Notes under the pieces: generated by a model
The model's database searches: none
What the model was told of the DNA's origin: nothing
The model's input: only the letters and a program-made list of their open reading frames with translations
NCBI RefSeq assembly: GCF_014489515.1
Contig: NZ_CP060782.1
Location: forward strand, 1,364,001-1,428,000
Reading direction: 5' to 3'
Length of the DNA stretch: 64,000 bases
From: Sphingomonas sediminicola
GTDB lineage: Bacteria; Pseudomonadota; Alphaproteobacteria; Sphingomonadales; Sphingomonadaceae
Part shown: positions 7,347-59,862 of the stretch, piece after piece
How positions within the stretch are numbered: the stretch's first letter is position 1
Layout of the letters: each line of letters begins with the position of its first letter
Program-made: the position numbers and the translations under genes

Positions 7347-9352
7347 TCGGCAGCCTCCTGCACGCGGCGGCCCTGTACGAGTTCTTCCGAACAGACATGC
7401 ATGGTCGGGCTGGAGCGGGTGATCGCGTTGGTCAGATAAAAGTCGCGAATCGGATAGACGACCGCACCCTCAGCCTTCGCGTCGGGCTTCGGCGGCGACC
7501 AATCGAACGCGATCAGGCCGTCGCGACCGAGCTGCGGATACTCCGCGACCATCTTCGCGCGAAGCTGGTCGAAACGGTCGAACGGCAAGGGCGAGCCGAA
7601 CAGATCGGACACGGCGCGGAAAATCGTCCAGTCCTCGCGAGCCTCGCCCGGAGCAAACGTTGCGCGCTCGCTGCGCTGAACCCGCCCCTCGGTGTTAACG
7701 TAGGTGCCGTGCTTCTCGGCATAAGCTGCGCCGGGGAGCACCAGATCGGCCTGCCGGGCGCCATTGTCGCCGTGGTGGCCGATGTACACCTTGAAGCTTC
7801 CCGCGAAGCGTGCCGGATCGACTTCGTCCGCGCCCAGGAGCAGCACGACTTCCGGTTTCGCCTTATCGATATCGGCGATGCCGCCCTTCTGCGCGTAGCC
7901 AAGGATCAGGCCGGCCATGCGCGATGCGCTTGTGTGAAGGACGTTGAAACCGTTCCAGCCGTCGCGGACGAGCTTGAGCGATTTCCCCAGGCCAAGCGCC
8001 GCGCCGAGCGCGTTGGCTGCAAGAGCGCCCGCGCCGACGATGACGGCCGGACGCTCGGCCTTGGCGAACGCATCAGCTACTTCCTTGGGAAGCTTCCCAA
8101 GCAGCTTCAGGTCGTTTCCGATCCACGCGACCTTCATGCCGAGGTCGACTTCAGGTCCGAGACCGAAGATCTTGGCTCCCTTGCGCTGAGCCTTGCGAAG
8201 CCGCGTGTTGACCAGCGGAGCCTCCCAGCGCGTGTTCGATCCAACGAGGAGGACGACGTCCGCATCCTCGATGCCGGCGATGGTCGAATTGAAGTTGATC
8301 GCGGCAAGGCTCGACACGTCGTAGGTCAGCCCGGTCTGGCGGCCCTCGAGCAGCGACGAGCCCTGCGCCTCCAGCAGCTTCTTCGCGGCGTACATTGTCT
8401 CGGCGTCAAGGAGGTCGCCGGCAATGGCAGCGACATTCGCACCGGCCTTCTTCAGACGCTTGGCGAACAGGTCGAGCGCCTCGCTCCAGCTTGCCTCGCG
8501 AAGCTTGCCCTTCTCACGAACCCACGGACGGTCAAGGCGATTGCGTACCAGCGCATCGACGTGGTGCCGCGTCTTGTCGCTGATCCACTCCTCGTTCACG
8601 TCGTCATTGACGCGCGGAAGTATGCGCATGACCTGCCGCTGGCGGACATCGAACCGGATGTTGGATCCCACCGCGTCCATGACGTCGATGCCGGGAACGC
8701 GGCGAAGCTCCCACGGACGGCTTTCGAACGCCTGGGGCTTCTGAAGCAGCGCCCCAACCGGGCAAACATCGGCCAGGTTGCCGGCCATTTCGGTAGTCAC
8801 GGCCTTCTCGAGGTAGGACGTGATCTGGCTGTCCTCGCCCCGATAAAGCATCCCGAGTTCGGGAACGCCCGCGACTTCTTCCGAAAAGCGGATGCACCGC
8901 GTGCACTGGATGCAGCGCGTCATCGCGGTCTTGATGACCGGGCCCATGTATTTGTCGTCAATGGCGCGCTTATTCTCGTCGAAGCGCGAGAACGGGCGGC
9001 CATAGGCCATCGCCTGGTCCTGAAGGTCGCACTCGCCGCCCTGGTCGCAGATCGGGCAGTCGAGTGGGTGATTGATGAGCAGGAACTCCATCACCCCTTC
9101 GCGGGCCTTCTTCACCATCGGTGTGTCGGTTCGGATCGTCTGGCCATCGGCGGCCGGAAGCGCGCAGCTCGCCTGCGGCTTGGGCGGTCCGGGCGCGACT
9201 TCGACCAGGCACATGCGGCAGTTGCCGGCGATCGACAGCCGCTCGTGATAGCAGAAGCGCGGGATCTCCTTGCCGGCGAGCTCACAGGCCTGCAGGACGG
9301 TCGCGCCCTGCGGGACCTCGATCTCAACCCCGTCGACGGTAACTTTAGGCAT
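7343..9352 (-). CDS. nuoG: NADH-quinone oxidoreductase subunit G
   Basis: Iron-sulfur subunit of the NADH-oxidising module, 669 residues. The N-terminal 2Fe-2S domain has [15 protein letters not shown]. The His-Cys4 motif region and 4Fe-4S ligands follow in [15 protein letters not shown] and [12 protein letters not shown]. The remainder is an inactive molybdopterin-oxidoreductase-like domain. The start [13 protein letters not shown] at 9352 is preferred over an upstream in-frame ATG at 9460, which would add a non-conserved basic stretch and run through the small gene upstream. Confidence 0.95.
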
Positions 9353-11631: not shown

Positions 11632-12860
11632 CAGCGGTCGCACTCCCCAAAAACCACGTCGATTGCGGACAACACGGCCGTCACATCCGCCAGCATGTGG
11701 CCCTTCATCATAAAGTCCATGGCTTGGAGGTGGCTGAACGCCGTTGGGCGTATCTTGCAGCGGTACGGACGGTTCGTCCCATCGGCGACGAGGTAGACGC
11801 CGAACTCGCCCTTCGGGCTCTCCGTCGCGACATACACTTCGCCCTCGGGCACGTGATAGCCCTCGGTGTAGAGCTTGAAGTGGTGGATGAGGGCCTCCAT
11901 CGAAGTCTTCATCTCGGAACGGCTCGGCGGGAACACCTTCCGGTCTTCCGATCCGACTGGCCCCTTCGGCATCTCTTTGAGGCACTGGCGCATGATCTTC
12001 GCCGACTGCCGCACTTCCTCCACGCGGACCATGAAGCGGTCGTAGCAGTCGCTGTTGGTGCCGACCGGAATGTCGAAGTCCATCCGGTCGTAGACTTCGT
12101 AAGGCTGCGAACGGCGGATATCCCACGGAATGCCGGCAGCGCGGATCATCGGGCCCGAGAAGCCCCAGGCGATCGCGTCTTCCTTGCTGACGACGCCGAT
12201 ATCGACATTGCGCTGCTTGAAGATTCGATTGTCAGCGACAAGGCTGATCGCGTCCTCGAACAGGTGAAGCCGGTTATCGAGCCAGTCGCCAAGGTCAACG
12301 AGCATCTTCTCCGGCAAGTCGTAGCGAACGCCGCCCGCGCGGAAGTAATTGGCGTGCATGCGCGCGCCGGACGCCCGCTCGTAGAACTGGAGCGTGTCCT
12401 CGCGGACCTCGAACAGCCACAGGTTCGGAGTCATCGCGCCGACGTCCATGATGTGGCTGCCGAGGTTCAGCATGTGATTGGAGATGCGGGTCAGCTCCGC
12501 CATCAGCACGCGAATGTACTGGGCGCGGAGCGGCACCTCGAGGCCCATCAACTTCTCGATTGCCAGCACGAAGCTGTGCTCCATGCACATCGGCGAGCAG
12601 TAATCGAGCCGGTCGAAGTAGGGCAGCGCCTGCTGGTAGGTCTTGTACTCGATTAGCTTCTCGGTCCCGCGGTGGAGCAGGCCGATGTGCGGATCGACGC
12701 GCTCGACGATCTCGCCGTCGAGCTCCATGATCATTCGAAGGACGCCGTGCGCCGCAGGGTGCTGCGGGCCGAAGTTGATCGTGTAATTGCTGACGGTGTC
12801 GTCGCCAGCCGTGCCGGCGCCGACGTTTACCTCGACCGTGCGCGAACGGGTGTCGGTCAT
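11631..12860 (-). CDS. nuoD: NADH-quinone oxidoreductase subunit D
   Basis: 49-kDa type subunit that forms the quinone site with NuoB; 409 residues, related to the NiFe-hydrogenase large subunit but without metal ligands. The start [16 protein letters not shown] is followed by [17 protein letters not shown], the N-terminal quinone-site motif. The ATG at 12860 overlaps the nuoC stop (ATGA, once the nuoC frame is repaired). Confidence 0.96.
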
Positions 12861-17953: not shown

Positions 17954-18013
17954 GCAACTCTCCAATTCGAATCTGTCCGATCACGAACGATGCAGCGCCG
18001 AACAGTTTCCCAA

Positions 18014-23090: not shown

Positions 23091-24096
23091 TCAGCCGAGC
23101 TTGGCCATCGCTGCAGCGGTGTCGACCATACGGTTCGAGAAGCCCATTCATTGTCGTACCAACTGACGACGCGGACGAGCTTGCCTTCGAGCACGGCCGT
23201 TTCGAGGCTGTCGACGGTCGAGCTCGCCGAATTATGGTTGAGGTCGATCGAAACCAAGGGCTCGTCGGTGTAGGCGAGGATGCCCTTGAGGCGGCCGCTT
23301 TCGCTCGCAGCCTTCAGCGCACCGTTGACCTCTTCGAGCGTCGTGTCGCGCTTCGGCGTGAAGGTCAGATCGACGAGGCTTACGTTCGGAACTGGCACGC
23401 GGACCGCGGAGCCGTCGAGTTTGCCCTTGAGTTCCGGAAGCACCTCGCCCACCGCGCGGGCAGCGCCGGTGGTCGTCGGGATGATCGACATCGCCGCAGC
23501 ACGGGCGCGGCGGGGATCGGAGTGGATCTGGTCGAGGATCTTCTGGTCGTTGGTGTAGGCGTGGATCGTCGTCATCAGGCCGCGCTCAATGCCGATCGTG
23601 TCGTTCAGCACCTTGGCGACCGGCGCTAGGCAATTGGTCGTGCAGGACGCGTTTGAGACGATCTTGTGCTCGGCGGTCAGCTTGTCGTCGTTGACGCCGT
23701 AGACGACGGTCAGGTCGGCACCCTTGGCTGGGCCGAGATGAGGACGCGCTTGGCGCCTGCCGCGAGGTGCTTCTCGCCGCCTGCACGGTCCGTGAAGAAG
23801 CCCGTGCACTCCAGCGCGATGTCGACGCCGTTGGCTGCATGCGGGAGATTAGCCGGGTCGCGCTCCGCTGTGACGTGGATGCGCTTGCCGTTGACGATGA
23901 TGTCATTGCCGTCGGTCGTCACTTCACCTGGGAAGACGCCGTGCACGCTATCGCGCTTGAACAGCCAGGCATTGGCCTTCGCGTCGGCGAGGTCGTTGAT
24001 CGCGACCAGCTCGAGGCCGCTATCGGGCCGCTCGAGGATCGCGCGCGCTACCAGCCGGCCGATGCGTCCGAAGCCGTTGATTGCAACTTTGGTCAT
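23091..24096 (-). CDS. gapA: Glyceraldehyde-3-phosphate dehydrogenase (two frameshifts)
   Basis: NAD(P)-dependent glycolytic dehydrogenase. It begins [20 protein letters not shown] (Rossmann fold), and the catalytic Cys is in [16 protein letters not shown]. One base is missing in ggg at 23730-23732, which breaks [17 protein letters not shown]. Another is missing in ccc at 23143-23145, which breaks [17 protein letters not shown]. With both restored the protein is exactly 335 residues, the standard length, and ends at the TGA at 23091. These are probably sequence errors, as gapA is normally essential. Confidence 0.93.
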
Positions 24097-30335: not shown

Positions 30336-30782
30336 TCAGCCGGCAAATGAGAATGCTGTCGGCGCCGCGCCGTAGCGGTTAGGAATCGTCGAGCCCTTCT
30401 TCATGAAAAGCGTAAGAAGATTGGCAAACGCGAGCACCGTGATGCCAAGGTAGCCGAGCGCGACGATCTGCGGCAGCGCTCCCCGGAATGCGAAAGCCAC
30501 CGGCACGAGGAGCAGCATCACGCAGGGCACGATCAGCTCGCGGCCCGTCTTATTGACGTCGTGGAGACGCCTGACACCCACGGCCAGCTGCGGAATCAGC
30601 AGCAACACGCCGACCGCTCCCGCAAGCAGCGGCCCTAGGGCCAGGAGCGTTCCGACAAGGCTGGCAACTGCACTCGCAATGATCACGAAAACGAAGAAGA
30701 GCCAGAATTCCTCGCGCGAAGCCCGACCGGAGAAATCAGCATATTTCTTCAGCGTATAAAGCGCGCATTCGAACAGCTTCAT
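30336..30782 (-). CDS. DUF805 membrane protein (copy 1)
   Basis: 148 residues starting MKLFECALYTLKKYADFSGR. DUF805 hallmarks are the N-terminal YADFSGRASREEFWLFF and VGVRRLHDVNKTGR between helices, with four predicted transmembrane segments. The function of DUF805 (YhaH-like) proteins is unknown. A second member follows at 30964-31461. An in-frame ATG further upstream is not conserved. Confidence 0.82.
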   Translation of the reverse strand: MKLFECALYTLKKYADFSGRASREEFWLFFVFVIIASAVASLVGTLLALGPLLAGAVGVLLLIPQLAVGVRRLHDVNKTGRELIVPCVMLLLVPVAFAFRGALPQIVALGYLGITVLAFANLLTLFMKKGSTIPNRYGAAPTAFSFAG

Positions 30783-30963
30783 GGTGACCCCCTCGATACG
30801 CGGCAGGTCGCTAGACGGTTGAGCACCGCTACCCACGCGCTTCCGAAAGTTTCGCTGAATTGCTGTTAAATATCAATTACGAAGGTTTGGTAATCCAGAA
30901 ATTCACGTTTCCTTCTCGTAGGTTGAGGCGGGCCGCCGTCGAACAGCGGCCCGCCTCCTAACT
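30783..30963. other. Intergenic region between the two DUF805 genes
   Basis: About 180 bases without coding potential. The half next to copy 1 is AT-rich (around 30860-30910) and probably holds its promoter. A 12-bp stem, GAGGCGGGCCGC (30925-30936) with GCGGCCCGCCTC (30946-30957), follows the stop of copy 2 at 30964 and may terminate it, though no T-run follows. Confidence 0.5.
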
Positions 30964-31461
30964 TCAGACGGTCGCAGCTGCGGTGCCACCGGCGTACGGG
31001 TCGGGTCCGTAGCTATTTTCGCCCTTGGTTCCCGGAAGAACCATGAAAACCAGCAGCGCAATCCCACCGACGAGAGCCAGCAAGCCGAGCAGCATCGTCG
31101 CGCCTGCGAGCGCCATCATGCTTCCCGAGGCAATCGCCGCGCCGGCCGCGAGTGCGAAGATGAGGTAGGGCACGATCGCGATCAGCAACCACCAGCCGCT
31201 GCGGTTGGTGTCGTGCAGGCGCCGCACGCCGACAGCGATCGACGGAACAAGTGTTCCAAGCATCAGGAGAATGCTGAGGAAACCGTACGGACCGACCGTA
31301 TGGTCGAGGCCGACGATGTTCTCCACGATGGAAATGACGATGTAGGCAACGACCAGAGCGAGCGTGAACCACCAATATTCCGCCCGAGGCGCGCGGCCCG
31401 AGAAATCGGCATATATTTGCAACGGGCGCTTCGCCCAATCGATCGGCGTCAGTTCAGTCAT
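30964..31461 (-). CDS. DUF805 membrane protein (copy 2)
   Basis: 165 residues, four transmembrane segments, with QIYADFSGRAPRAEYWWFTL and AVGVRRLHDTNRSGWWLLIA matching copy 1 at the family motifs but diverged elsewhere, so an old duplication or separate paralogue. It begins MTELTPIDWAKRPLQIY. Function unknown. Confidence 0.85.
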   Translation of the reverse strand: MTELTPIDWAKRPLQIYADFSGRAPRAEYWWFTLALVVAYIVISIVENIVGLDHTVGPYGFLSILLMLGTLVPSIAVGVRRLHDTNRSGWWLLIAIVPYLIFALAAGAAIASGSMMALAGATMLLGLLALVGGIALLVFMVLPGTKGENSYGPDPYAGGTAAATV

Positions 31462-31514: not shown

Positions 31515-31645
31515 CTAATTCCGGGGTGCCTGCCGCCGGTAGCTGAGCGCCTCCGCCAAATGCACCCAGCGGAAAGCTGGACCTGGACTTCGATGGGCCG
31601 GGCTTCGAGCCCGAGGTACGCAACCGTGGCGACCGTGGCGGTCAT
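31515..31645 (-). pseudogene. comM: Remnant of comM/yifB (Mg-chelatase-like ATPase), ends only
   Basis: From an ATG at 31645 the sequence reads MTATVATVAYLGLEARPIEV and on to VQVQLSAG, which is the N terminus of the ComM/YifB family. Some 50 bases later, in another frame, it reads VHLAEALSYRRQAP and stops at TAG 31515, the usual C terminus. The roughly 460 residues in between, including all AAA+ motifs, are absent. This is an internal deletion, not a homopolymer error. ComM is a branch-migration helicase that helps integrate DNA in natural transformation. Confidence 0.8.
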
Positions 31646-31765
31646 TCGGCCCCGCCACAATGGGCTAAGCAGACACCCCTAACTCGGCGGGATGCTGCTA
31701 GCGCGATGGCGCGACACACACTGCAAGTCCTTGCGAGGACAGGCGCCTCGCCCCACATCCGTTCG

Positions 31766-32122
31766 ATGATTACCAGGGAACAGTGGCGTAAGTTTATCGA
31801 CCAGCCCGCAGTCGAATGGACGATCTTCGTCCTCGGAATCCTGTTCATGATCGCGGCCATTCCGGTCGGAGCGCTTCCCGGACCGGGCGGTGTCTTCGTC
31901 TTTGCGATCGGCCTTGCGATGGTGCTCAAGACGAGCATGTGGGCGAAACGCCGCTACGTGCGGTTCAAGCGGTCCAAGCCGAAGGCGGGCAGCTGGGCCG
32001 ACTGGGCACTTCGCCGAAGGAGCGCCCGGCGCCGCAGCAAGCTTCAGAAGGAGCGCGAGGCGGAGGCACTCACCACCTCACCAAGCGAAACCATCGCGGG
32101 TCCGGAGCGCAGAGCCAATTGA
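31766..32122 (+). CDS. Small membrane protein upstream of rpmH, PGPGW-like
   Basis: 118 residues starting MITREQWRKFIDQPAVEW. Two hydrophobic segments (TIFVLGILFMIAAIPVG and VFVFAIGLAMVLKTSMW) flank LPGPGG, which resembles the PGPGW transmembrane family. A strongly basic C-terminal tail follows (ADWALRRRSARRRSKLQ). An upstream in-frame ATG at 31706 adds a non-conserved stretch. The function is unknown; it precedes the rpmH cluster on the same strand. Confidence 0.65.
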   Translation: MITREQWRKFIDQPAVEWTIFVLGILFMIAAIPVGALPGPGGVFVFAIGLAMVLKTSMWAKRRYVRFKRSKPKAGSWADWALRRRSARRRSKLQKEREAEALTTSPSETIAGPERRAN

Positions 32123-32203: not shown

Positions 32204-32668
32204 ATGAGCGATGAAGCGCACCTTCCAGCCGAGCAACCTCGTCCGCAAGCGCCGGCACGGCTTCCGGTCGCGCATGGCAACCGTGGGCGGTCGCAAGGTG
32301 CTGAACGCCCGCCGCGCGCGCGGCCGCAAGAAGCTCAGCGCCTAATCATCCTTCGGAAACGCTCGGACTTCCTCGCTGCGAACGCCGGTCGGCGCGCTGC
32401 GACGCCTGGCTTTATCCTTCTCGTCCGCGATCGTAAGGACGGCGATCCCTCCAAGCGCGTCGGATTCACCGTCAGCAAGAAGGTCGGCGGCTCCGTCGTG
32501 CGGAATCGCATGAAGCGCCGCTTCCGTGAACTCGCCCGCGAAATCATACCGGCGGGTGGACATTGCGGCTCCGACCATGTGATGATCGGCCGCTCCGGCG
32601 GAATTGAACGCGAGTTCGACGCTCTGCGGACCGATCTGGCCAATGCGCTGAAAAAGATGCGCCCGTGA
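32204..32668 (+). CDS. rnpA: Ribonuclease P protein component (start unresolved)
   Basis: Protein subunit of RNase P for tRNA 5' processing. The conserved body starts about 32350 ([11 protein letters not shown]), with [10 protein letters not shown] and the RNR motif [19 protein letters not shown]. The puzzle is the start. In this frame the only ATG, GTG or TTG upstream of the body is the ATG at 32204, seven bases before rpmH, so a normal initiation would nest rpmH inside rnpA as described for Thermus. Alternatives are a rare AUC start at 32347 or 32350, just after the rpmH stop, or a base error. The stop overlaps yidD (GTGA). Confidence 0.85.
32211..32345 (+). CDS. rpmH: 50S ribosomal protein L34
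   Basis: 44-residue, very basic ribosomal protein of the large subunit. It begins [20 protein letters not shown] and ends RKKLSA. GAGAG lies eight bases before the ATG, the right spacing for a Shine-Dalgarno. It sits at the head of rpmH-rnpA-yidD-yidC-engB and lies wholly inside the longest rnpA reading frame, in a different frame. Confidence 0.96.
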
Positions 32669-32876
32669 TCGCCAAGCTGCTCATCCTGATCGCGCGCGGC
32701 TGGCAGAAGGGTCCCTCCCGAGTGCTTCCGCCAAGCTGCCGTTATCAGCCGAGCTGTTCGGCCTATGCGATCACTGCACTTCAACGCTATGGCGCTGCCC
32801 GCGGCGGATGGCTCGCTCTCAAGCGGATCATGCGCTGTCACCCCTGGGCGGCCAGGGCCCCGACCCCGTACCCTGA
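32665..32876 (+). CDS. yidD: Membrane protein insertion efficiency factor YidD (frameshift)
   Basis: Small amphipathic inner-membrane-associated protein assisting YidC. It starts with GTG in the GTGA overlap with rnpA. It contains PPSCRYQPSCSAYAITAL and RIMRCHPW, both YidD signatures. A base missing in ggg at 32846-32848 removes the expected GGQGPDPVP ending and fuses the frame artificially to yidC. Repaired, it stops at the TGA at 32874 after 70 residues. Confidence 0.9.
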
Positions 32877-32889
32877 TCGAGGATCACAA

Positions 32890-34587
32890 GTGAACGACAA
32901 CAAGAACCTGATCCTCGCGGTCGTGCTGAGCGCGCTTATCCTGCTCGGCTGGAGCTTCCTGTCGAACAGGTTCATCCCGCAGAACCCGCCGCCAAAGGTC
33001 GAGAAGGGTAAGATCGAACCGCAGATCCAGCCGCAGAGTGGTCCGGTGGCAAACGCACCATCTCAACTGCGCGATCGCAACCTGGTCCTGCGCGAAACGC
33101 CGCGAGTGCTGATCGAAACACCGGCGCTTCGCGGTTCGATCAACCTCAAGGGCGCACGGATCGACGATCTGTGGATGCTGAAGCACCACGTCACCTACAA
33201 GAATAGCTCCTCTCCGGTAGCACTGCTCAACCCGCAGGGAACCGCGGCGTCGTCCTTTGTCGGCTTCAGCTGGAATGGGCCGAACGCGCCGAACGGCAAC
33301 ACCGTCTGGACGGCCAGTTCGCGAGTCCTCACGCCGGGCAAGCCGGTGACGCTCAGCTGGACCAGTCCAGCGGGCCAAACCTATCAGCTCGTCATTTCGG
33401 TCGACGATCTCTACCTCTTTACGGTCGAGCAGCGCGTCACCAATGGATCGACCCAGCCGGTCGCTGTCCAACCGTATAGCTATTCCAGCCGTGCAGGCCG
33501 TTCCGCCGACATTTCGAGCTACACCGTCCACGTCGGCCCCATGAGCGTCCGCGACGGCAAGGCCGATTACGAAACCAAGTGGCAAACAGTGCGCGAGGCC
33601 GGCCCGAACGGCCTGAATTACGACCCGTCGAAGGGCTGGATCGGCTTCACCGACAAATATTGGCTAACGGCCCTTGCCCCTCAGGGAACGACGCGGGATT
33701 CTTTCCGCTACTCCGCATCAGGCTCCTACCAGGCCGACGCGGTTGCGCCCCAATCCGTCGTCGCGCCGGGCCAGACGACCAGCTTCACGACTTCGGTTTT
33801 CGCCGGAGCCAAGGAAAAGGCCGCACTGGACCGCTACGAGAATGCGGGCATCACCAAGCTTTCCAAGTCGATCGACTGGGGCTGGTTTGAATGGTTCATG
33901 CGTCCGATCTTCGACCTGCTGAACTGGCTGTTCCACCAGATCGGCAACTTCGGCGTCGCGATCATCTGTCTGACGCTGATCGTTCGCGGCCTCATGTTCC
34001 CGATCGCCCAGAAGCAGTTCCAGTCGATGGCCGCGATGCGCAAGCTGCAGCCGAAAATGAAAGCGATTCAGGAGCGCTACAAGGACGACAAGCCCAAGCT
34101 TCAGCAGGAGATGATGAAGCTATACCAGCAGGAGAAGATCAATCCTGCCGCGGGCTGCCTGCCGATCGTGCTCCAGATCCCGATCTTCTACGCGCTCTAT
34201 AAGGTACTGATGGTCGCCGTCGAAATGCGGCACCAGCCTTTCGCTCTGTGGATCAAGGACCTTTCGGCGCCGGACCCGCTGACGCCGATCAACCTTTTCG
34301 GCCTGCTGGACTTCGCGCCTCCGCACTTTCTTGCGATCGGCGTCCTGCCGATCCTGCTTGGCGTGACGATGTGGCTGCAGTTCAAGCTGAATCCGGCCCC
34401 GATGGACCCGACGCAGCAGCAAATCTTCGCGATCATGCCGTGGATCATGATGTTCGTGATGGCGCCATTTGCGAGCGGTCTGCAGCTCTACTGGGTCACC
34501 AGTAACGTCCTGACGATTCTGCAGCAGTGGTGGCTGTACAAGAAATATGGCCTGCACTTCTCCGACACGCATCCGGCGACGACCTGA
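32890..34587 (+). CDS. yidC: Membrane protein insertase YidC
   Basis: Oxa1-family insertase for inner-membrane proteins, 565 residues. The start is GTG (NDNKNLILAVVLSALILLGW, first helix) with GAGG just upstream. The large periplasmic P1 domain spans about 60-340. The C-terminal five-helix insertase core includes FGVAIICLTLIVRGLMFPIA, the cytoplasmic hairpin QPKMKAIQERYKDDKPKLQQ, and GCLPIVLQIPIFYALYKVL. Confidence 0.96.
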   Translation: MNDNKNLILAVVLSALILLGWSFLSNRFIPQNPPPKVEKGKIEPQIQPQSGPVANAPSQLRDRNLVLRETPRVLIETPALRGSINLKGARIDDLWMLKHHVTYKNSSSPVALLNPQGTAASSFVGFSWNGPNAPNGNTVWTASSRVLTPGKPVTLSWTSPAGQTYQLVISVDDLYLFTVEQRVTNGSTQPVAVQPYSYSSRAGRSADISSYTVHVGPMSVRDGKADYETKWQTVREAGPNGLNYDPSKGWIGFTDKYWLTALAPQGTTRDSFRYSASGSYQADAVAPQSVVAPGQTTSFTTSVFAGAKEKAALDRYENAGITKLSKSIDWGWFEWFMRPIFDLLNWLFHQIGNFGVAIICLTLIVRGLMFPIAQKQFQSMAAMRKLQPKMKAIQERYKDDKPKLQQEMMKLYQQEKINPAAGCLPIVLQIPIFYALYKVLMVAVEMRHQPFALWIKDLSAPDPLTPINLFGLLDFAPPHFLAIGVLPILLGVTMWLQFKLNPAPMDPTQQQIFAIMPWIMMFVMAPFASGLQLYWVTSNVLTILQQWWLYKKYGLHFSDTHPATT

Positions 34588-45293: not shown

Positions 45294-46016
45294 ATGCGTA
45301 TTCGCAATCTTGTGGCCGCCGCCTTCATTGGCGTGGCGGCACTTGGCGTATCTGGCTGCGCCACCAGCCTTCCGACGAAGGTCACTCGCTATTCTGTTGC
45401 CATTCCGCAGGGGCAGAGCTTCTACGTAGTCCCGGGCCAGGGCGTCCAGTCCGGCCTTGAGTTCAACCGCTATGCGGCGCTCGTCGCCGAGCAGATGGCC
45501 GCGCGCGGTTATCAGCAGGCTGCAAGCACCGCTGCGGCCGATATGCTGGTCAAGGTCGGCTACGGCGTCGACAACGGCACCAAGGAAATCTCAGTCGATC
45601 CGTTCGCGCGGTCCCGTTACTACGACCCGTTCTATCGCGGCTTCTATGACCCGTTCTACGGCGGCTATTTCGGCCGGCCATACTGGTCGCGCTACGGTTA
45701 TTACGGTTACCGCTCGCCCTTCTACTGGGGCTGGGACGATCCGTTCTGGTATAACTCGCCCTACTCCGGCTTCGGCGCCGATCCGATCCGGGAGTACACG
45801 GTCTACAAGAGCGAACTCGACCTCGACATCGTTCGGCGCGTCGACAACGCGCCGTTGTTCGATGGCAAGGCGGTTGCCCGTTCGCAGACCGATGAGCTTG
45901 GAACGCTCGTTCCGAACCTGATCGAAGCGATGTTCACCAATTTCCCGGGCGAGAACGGGAAGACCGTGAAGATCACGGTTCCGGGCCGAAAGCGCCCCGC
46001 CACCGCGACACGCTAA
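45294..46016 (+). CDS. DUF4136 lipoprotein with aromatic-rich central segment
   Basis: 240 residues. The signal ends in a lipobox (GVAALGVSGCATSL), so it is an envelope lipoprotein. DUF4136 features flank a central insert of about 55 residues that is almost only Tyr, Phe, Trp, Gly, Pro, Arg and Asp, with near-repeats such as YYDPFYRGFYDPFYGGYFGR. The end, ELGTLVPNLIEAMFTNFPGE, is family-typical. Function unknown. Confidence 0.8.
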   Translation: MRIRNLVAAAFIGVAALGVSGCATSLPTKVTRYSVAIPQGQSFYVVPGQGVQSGLEFNRYAALVAEQMAARGYQQAASTAAADMLVKVGYGVDNGTKEISVDPFARSRYYDPFYRGFYDPFYGGYFGRPYWSRYGYYGYRSPFYWGWDDPFWYNSPYSGFGADPIREYTVYKSELDLDIVRRVDNAPLFDGKAVARSQTDELGTLVPNLIEAMFTNFPGENGKTVKITVPGRKRPATATR

Positions 46017-59199: not shown

Positions 59200-59862
59200 T
59201 CAAGCGGGTCGAAGACTGACCTTTCCACCCGCATGTCGGTCGAGGCACCCGGCGAGGTCCAGCTCACGGAGGGCCATCTGCACCGCGCCAGTCGGAGCAC
59301 GGACAGGCGGATGATCTCGTCGACCGGTACGGGCGCAGGGCCGAGCAGTTCCTCGACAAGCCCGAGCGCGCCGGCATCGCCGTCCATCCATCGCGGCTCA
59401 GCGGGCTCGTAGGTGGCGCGGGGCGATGCGAAGCCAGGCTGGATCGGCCGAACCGCCTCCAGCACGTCCGCCGCGTTCTGGACGAGAGTTGCGCCCTACC
59501 GGATCAGCTGGTTTCAGCTGGGCTCCCGGATCGAGGGGCGGTCCGGGGACGGCCATGACCTCCCTGCCCGCTTCCGCGGCAAGCCGCGCGGTGATCAATG
59601 AGCCAGACTTCGGAGCGGCTTCGACAACGACTGTGCCGAGGCTGAGGCCGGCGATGATCCGGTTGCGATAAGGGGAAGTGGCGTGCGCGCGGCTCTGTCC
59701 CCGGCAGCATCTCCGCGATCACCAACCCGCACTCGAACATCGCTTCCTGCCGCGTCTGATTTTCCGGCGGATAGAAGACGTCGATCCTCAGCTGGCGGTA
59801 GGTAACGGCCCGATGCCGGGCGAACGGACCAGCCGGAGCCGGTCGACCAAATCATTACTCAC
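59200..59862 (-). pseudogene. dprA: Degraded dprA/smf (DNA processing protein A)
   Basis: Starts normally with a GTG overlapping the plsY stop (VSNDLVDRLRLVRSPGIGP), then TYRQL is joined directly to IDVFYPPENQ. The intervening part, expected to hold the start of the Rossmann-like domain, is missing (about 130 residues by comparison with family length). Downstream pieces [40 protein letters not shown] and [19 protein letters not shown] are clear DprA. A TGA replaces the Cys of GCNQLIR, a TAG follows LIR, and at least three more indels occur before LDLAGCLDRHAGGKV. This gene is not functional. Confidence 0.85.

Follow-up and report, generated by a model that had tools for sequence, protein, structure and literature searches.

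Internal deletion of comM in a Sphingomonas sediminicola genome in which dprA and comEC are also cut

Insertions into comM and its decay to a pseudogene are well documented for Acinetobacter and further genera (PMC4774983; PMC11472951). In Acinetobacter baumannii the gene is inactivated by AbaR and other islands, and its loss is tied to reduced transformation, while pathway genes other than comM rarely explain variation in transformation (PMC11472951). Recent, independent defects of competence genes are described for the Pasteurellaceae, among them deletions and, in comM, a 17-kb insertion (PMC1626085); each defective genome there has one to three affected genes, most of which persist in damaged form. 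Insertions in comM orthologues of several genera and the disruption of competence genes by mobile elements are described in PMC4774983, and PMC12955456 describes comEC of Piscirickettsia salmonis as interrupted by transposable elements. Nothing was found on Sphingomonadales natural transformation together with comEC, or on Sphingomicrobium together with comEC, in a literature search from which subscription journals were mostly absent.

The locus described here resembles the A. baumannii case in the gene affected; it differs in having a clean deletion without an island, and in that dprA and comEC are also cut. Like the Pasteurellaceae, the genus has defects of comM and further uptake genes that are confined to particular lineages (PMC1626085); here, however, each losing lineage has three or four pathway genes absent or damaged, many of them gone. 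Widespread loss of a central transformation gene is shared with P. salmonis, whereas the gene and the mechanism are different (PMC12955456). The insertions treated in PMC4774983 have counterparts in the relatives G063, G009, G001 and perhaps G059, not in the scar analysed here.

The window, the whole stretch of 64,000 nucleotides that was analysed, lies within a single contig of 2,757,025 bases (genome G000). The comM remnant occupies positions 31515-31642 on the minus strand and consists of 27 N-terminal codons joined out of frame to the last ~16 codons. The locus has the following features:

31562..31642, minus strand: comM 5' remnant, with the start codon (31640-31642) and codons 1-27, reading MTATVATVAYLGLEARPIEVQVQLSAG (tblastn)
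31515..31565, minus strand: comM 3' remnant, (V)HLAEALSYRRQAPRN and stop, in another frame than the 5' remnant
31562..31566, minus strand: comM deletion junction, with zero inserted bases and a short GG-containing overlap of the two sides (by eye)
31706..32122, plus strand: divergently transcribed neighbour, a 138-aa small protein with no Pfam match
30964..31461, minus strand: DUF805 gene (PF05656), just downstream of the comM stop
30336-30836, minus strand: second DUF805 gene (PF05656)
32345..34587, plus strand: genes that we take to be rnpA-yidD-yidC, used as the synteny anchor for finding the locus in relatives

With the 502-aa ComM of the relative G085 as the tblastn query, the match in the window was confined to residues 1-27, at 96% identity; the C-terminal remnant was paired by eye with the end of the G085 protein, ...AEALSYRRQAPRN-stop. 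Beyond codon 27, the joined frame continues with unrelated residues. Since comM of G085 has 502 codons, with start and end as in the window, ~460 codons are gone. The 5' and 3' remnants overlap by ~4 bases, and thus no DNA was inserted at the junction. In comM of Sphingomonas daechungensis (G010), GCCGGAT is seen by eye on both sides of the future junction, and at the junction in the window the common bases, also read by eye, come down to GG and a few neighbours. This arrangement would fit a deletion between short matches and does not prove it.

S. daechungensis is the closest genome found, with 80% DNA identity here, followed by G085 with 75%. The DNA alignment blocks flanking the junction are separated by 1,463 bases in the former and by 1,449 bases in the latter, and in both this interval is the site of comM. 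The intact comM of both relatives (unbroken in G010 by tblastn) adjoins the same divergent gene, for which a tblastn match was obtained in 50 of the 50 loci compared, and rnpA-yidD-yidC. In the window the same interval also contains the tandem DUF805 pair (30336-31461, minus strand) beside the comM remnant, and the aligned stretch of G085 has neither gene. The two DUF805 genes have no common DNA match longer than 11 bases; a DUF805-like frame, identified by eye, also follows the broken comM of G054. A plasmid collection held no match to the comM locus.

A ComM/YifB protein (TIGR00368) comprises a ChlI-like N-terminal domain, an AAA+ Mg_chelatase core with Walker motifs and Mg_chelatase_C in a single frame of ~500 aa. 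An open frame of ~500 aa with all these domains is absent from the window, where only the ends remain. A genome-wide search yielded no Mg_chelatase_C domain match that would point to a second comM, and the sole match to TIGR00368 was partial, located elsewhere and scored 20.4 bits against a cut-off of 362.4. The locus therefore carries a comM pseudogene formed by internal deletion, as evidenced by its orthologous position, two recognisable ends and an intact orthologue at that position in the relatives. The first-pass annotation had proposed that an internal deletion of ~1.4 kb left ~27 and ~16 residues of comM out of frame; reading of the remnants and comparison with G010 and G085 bear out both the figures and the event.

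A remnant of dprA, likewise reported at first pass from the same window, was also recovered, with residues 1-20 and 168-362 preserved:

59803..59862, minus strand: dprA 5' remnant, residues 1-20 (tblastn)
59203..59785, minus strand: dprA 3' remnant, residues 168-362 in four tblastn pieces

At 59787, ~422 bases are gone. The dprA gene of G085 is intact, and that of G010 is of full length but has frame breaks. For comEC, no Competence domain match was found in G000. Its locus (G000 C1 974-994 kb) has a deletion at ~982,950, where positions 7529 and 9317 of G085 L203 are joined across 26 bases; G010 agrees (positions 7877 and 9667), the region being present in G010 and absent in G000. The comEC frame of G085 occupies L203 7400-9577, so both ends of the gene are kept in G000 and ~1.8 kb is gone. 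An open frame for comF is located at G000 C1:712051-712647 (E 3e-25); this match is below the curated cut-off, as are the comF matches in all 71 genomes searched. Because comF is open, the pathway is not wholly gone.

The earlier suggestion that this lineage has lost transformation, for which the state of comEC and comF was a check, thus agrees with the gutting of comEC by an internal deletion of its own, comF with its open frame being the exception. Loss of natural transformation in the lineage is supported as a prediction from the gene content, because comM, dprA and comEC are cut and a second comM was not found.

Codon-position counts were compared for the genes that remain. The dprA remnant of G000 has a ratio of 25:23 (positions 1+2 : 3), compared with 591:1403 for the same branch in 22 control ORFs (P 0.001); it is not different from the 19:30 of dprA in G085 (P 0.22), and the count for G010 is 30:27. 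This is a weak indication that the remnant is relaxed relative to the control ORFs, not relative to dprA of G085. For comF the corresponding ratios are 35:36 in G000, 15:28 in G010 and 28:40 in G085, and the G000 ratio exceeds that of the 22 control ORFs.

The best explanation, to which we assign a probability of roughly 0.9, is that comM became a pseudogene through one clean internal deletion of ~1.38 kb (~460 codons), as one of the steps by which the transformation pathway of this lineage has been decaying. The deletion, which probably arose by slippage or illegitimate recombination at short matches, removed the AAA+ helicase core and left the ends adjoining the neighbour genes; these ends may survive because the event is recent and because they lie beside the promoters of the neighbours. 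Similar internal deletions in dprA and comEC, with comF still open, would belong to the same decay. ComEC is the inner-membrane DNA channel, and the roles of the Com proteins are established. Without ComEC no import of transforming DNA would be expected, and without DprA and ComM no efficient RecA loading or heteroduplex extension; the transformation phenotype has presumably been lost.

The genus search comprised 71 genomes, including S. daechungensis (G010), S. alba (G042), S. edaphi (G049), S. caseinilyticus (G047), S. cremea (G014), S. rhizophila (G059), Sphingomicrobium astaxanthinifaciens (G006) and Sphingomicrobium nitratireducens (G058). Fifty-three were regarded as good (completeness >=90%, contamination <=5%), and among these, domain matches were obtained for the comM C-terminal domain in 47, for dprA in 49 and for comEC in 47, some of the matches being remnants. 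All three genes are missing or broken in six of the 53 (G000, G049, G054, G019, G064, and G086). A strong comF match is absent from three of the six (G049, G064, and G086); comF has a stop within the match in G054 and is open in G000 and G019. The dprA lesion of G054 amounts to no more than a frame break, at residue 160. The five triple losers other than G000 have a completeness of 99-100, and general incompleteness is therefore no explanation for them.

On a tree of 50 genomes based on six proteins (49 of the 53 good genomes and G010, with G001, G012, G062, and G069 left out), the triple losers occupy five branches and the triple loss needs 5 parsimony changes; G049 and G086 are sisters (support 99), while several deep nodes are weakly supported and the placement of G054 has a support of 58. 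The naive chance of such co-loss is <1e-12, a figure that ignores relatedness and is not a real probability. The comM lesions differ among the losers wherever pieces remain: residues 1-82 are joined in frame to 447-502 in G019, residues ~1-40 are joined to a C-terminal piece in G086 (by eye), and only residues 267-437 are left in G054. No comM pieces were found in G049 and G064. In G019 comEC is reduced to residues 46-128 and 660-720. Gene decay of this kind is already known and is now seen here as well. Among 41 genomes searched, two from other genera of the order (G032 and G039) likewise gave no comM domain match.

Five further good genomes have a broken comM, through loss of the ATPase core in one and through insertions in the other four, bringing the total to 11 of 53 (G069 and G062 not counted); the 10 of these genomes that are on the tree need 9 parsimony changes. 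In four of the five (G021, G063, G009, and G059) comM is the damaged gene, and comEC, dprA, and comF give near-full matches (dprA also by tblastn in three). In G021 residues 190-350 are gone in frame, which removes the nucleotide-binding part. The comM of G063 contains a 3.4-kb IS1595-family element (L191:12475-15908) whose inverted ends are similar and which is bordered by a 10-base direct repeat. In G009 an island of ~14 kb (L159, L218; C1 ~150-165 kb) is located inside comM just before the Walker A motif, LMSGPPGAGKS; it encodes an Eco29kI-type nuclease and a cytosine methylase (restriction-modification), an RES/Xre pair and a serine recombinase, and is comparable to the A. baumannii islands in carrying a restriction-modification system. 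The comM of G059 has a 1.77-kb insert (L186) near the gene start, between residues 33 and 31; two long plus-frame ORFs of the insert have no Pfam match, and a one-frame scan matched comM domains only. In G001 residues 1-338 and 337-502 are on two contigs (L266:1-2617, L267:1-926) and run into 2.6 kb and 0.9 kb of non-comM sequence, the latter, on the 3' side, encoding a serine recombinase; the break point is unlike those of the other broken comM genes, and the comEC match is in two pieces.

In G069 (L270:3-728) and G062 (L269:4660-5397), two fragmented assemblies that have comEC and dprA matches, comM residues 1-242 and 1-246, respectively, run into contig ends. These ends lie close to the site of the G063 element (240-244), and a repeated element at them would explain the breaks.

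The splitting of comM by elements or inserts in G063, G009, G001, and G059, together with its standing elsewhere as an insertion target (PMC4774983; PMC11472951), raises the question of whether comM in the window was first broken by a mobile element that subsequently departed through an imprecise deletion, in which case the remnant would be a scar left by element-host conflict. Disruption by a mobile element is evident in G063, G009, and G001; the junction in the window, however, shows neither inserted bases nor a remnant of an element nor a duplicated target, and there is no positive sign of an earlier insertion point. The deletion reaches within ~80 and ~50 bases of the comM ends, so that any inner insertion point would have been erased. 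We consider such a history unlikely.

The partial states found in the genus could be arranged in a sequence in which transformation collapses repeatedly along one path, with comM broken first, by elements or by deletion of the core, followed by comEC and dprA, and by comF last. We put this forward tentatively, at somewhat less than an even chance. G009, G021, G059, and G063, with their large comM lesions beside near-full matches to the other three genes, speak for it. No large lesion of comEC or dprA beside an intact comM was present among the domain matches examined, comEC lesions being judged within the matched domain; the exceptions are frame breaks, possibly sequencing errors. Frame breaks also occur in comM of G006 and G008, and broken matches without large lesions were obtained for dprA in G008 and G055 and for comEC in G001, G024, and G045; all of these may be errors or early decay. 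Shorter open frames of comEC are found in G007 (619 aa), G006 (635 aa), and G008 (436 aa). Because of these frame breaks and short comEC frames, the order with comM first is only suggestive.

It is very unlikely that comM is in fact intact and that ~1.4 kb of it was collapsed or omitted during assembly, although some properties of the assembly point that way. Its completeness of 90.61 is low for the genus (97-100 for most other good genomes), and a three-way alignment with G010 and G085 contains 17 deletions and 19 insertions of one base specific to the window, for which reason small indels in the window are not to be trusted. Several clean deletions are also absent from both relatives within the ~140 kb compared; those that remove genes affect comM, dprA, comEC, a DUF72 gene and a phospholipase-D-family gene. 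The fourth of these left a scar within the window:

17965..18011, strand not assigned: deletion scar of the DUF72 gene, with the whole 260-aa gene of G085 gone and the sequence also present in G010

The DUF72 gene of G085 matches PF01904 (E 1e-71). Against an assembly artefact, three of the five gene-removing deletions affect com genes, the only ones known in the stretches compared being comM, dprA, and comEC, and random loss would not select one pathway; moreover, joint loss or breakage of these three genes recurs in the five other genomes of completeness 99-100. The cuts in three com genes and the independent parallels in the genus make an assembly error behind the comM deletion unlikely.

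Other differences between these assemblies were recorded. A glyceraldehyde-3-phosphate dehydrogenase gene (Gp_dh_N; window 23710-24096, minus strand) has been shortened to 128 codons; at 23731 it lacks one base that G010 and G085 have, which is probably a sequencing error. The phospholipase-D-family (cardiolipin-synthase-like) gene, of 478 aa, is cleanly gone at G000 C1 ~1,025,000 (L237); it is present in G085 and has a homologue in G010. Other length differences include those at 11634, at 46000 and beyond 62650 in the window, and at ~1,007,000-1,009,000 and ~1,032,800-1,041,800 of G000 C1. In G010, the assembly of which is 86% complete with many one-base deletions, frame breaks divide comEC into four tblastn pieces and dprA into three; they possibly represent errors or shared early decay, which are not separable in an assembly so incomplete and noisy.

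That the comM remnant has been preserved because it acts in its own right, as a small peptide or as a promoter or leader for its neighbours, appears highly improbable. The ends do adjoin the divergent gene (start 31706 or 31766) and the downstream gene (start 31461), and replacements on this branch are few in the N-terminal remnant (1 at codon positions 1+2, 4 at position 3), but these counts are tiny, the frame after codon 27 reads unrelated residues, and other losers retain different comM pieces or none that could be found.

Recipients of the Rhodobacter gene transfer agent need com homologues, yet the idea that the com genes here served uptake from such agents rather than of free DNA, and were lost after the agent, can be practically dismissed, since the single marker tried, GTA_TIM (PF13547), was not found in any of the 71 genomes, whether com-positive or not (it was detected in 1 of 14 control genomes, Caulobacter). 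Gene transfer agents are therefore unlikely to be the reason for com genes in this genus, and the link was rejected.

Two further markers of uptake were considered. The ComEA-type HHH_3 domain was dropped as a marker: it matched in 47 of the 71 genomes, in 16 over the cut-off, mostly in frames of ~417 aa or >900 aa. PF00437 (T2SSE, a family that covers pilus and secretion ATPases) was matched in every one of the 53 good genomes and shows no visible link to com loss; loss of the outer uptake machine is thus not seen.

Overall, this mostly environmental genus has core transformation genes that most good genomes retain and that have been lost jointly on five branches or more. The tightness of the co-loss and the absence of the gene-transfer-agent marker suggest that the com genes are maintained in the genus for transformation itself. 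The intermediate states found within it could serve to test explanations for the retention or loss of transformation, and, if the path beginning with comM is true, the living species would form a ready-made series of stages for testing mobile elements as drivers of transformation loss.
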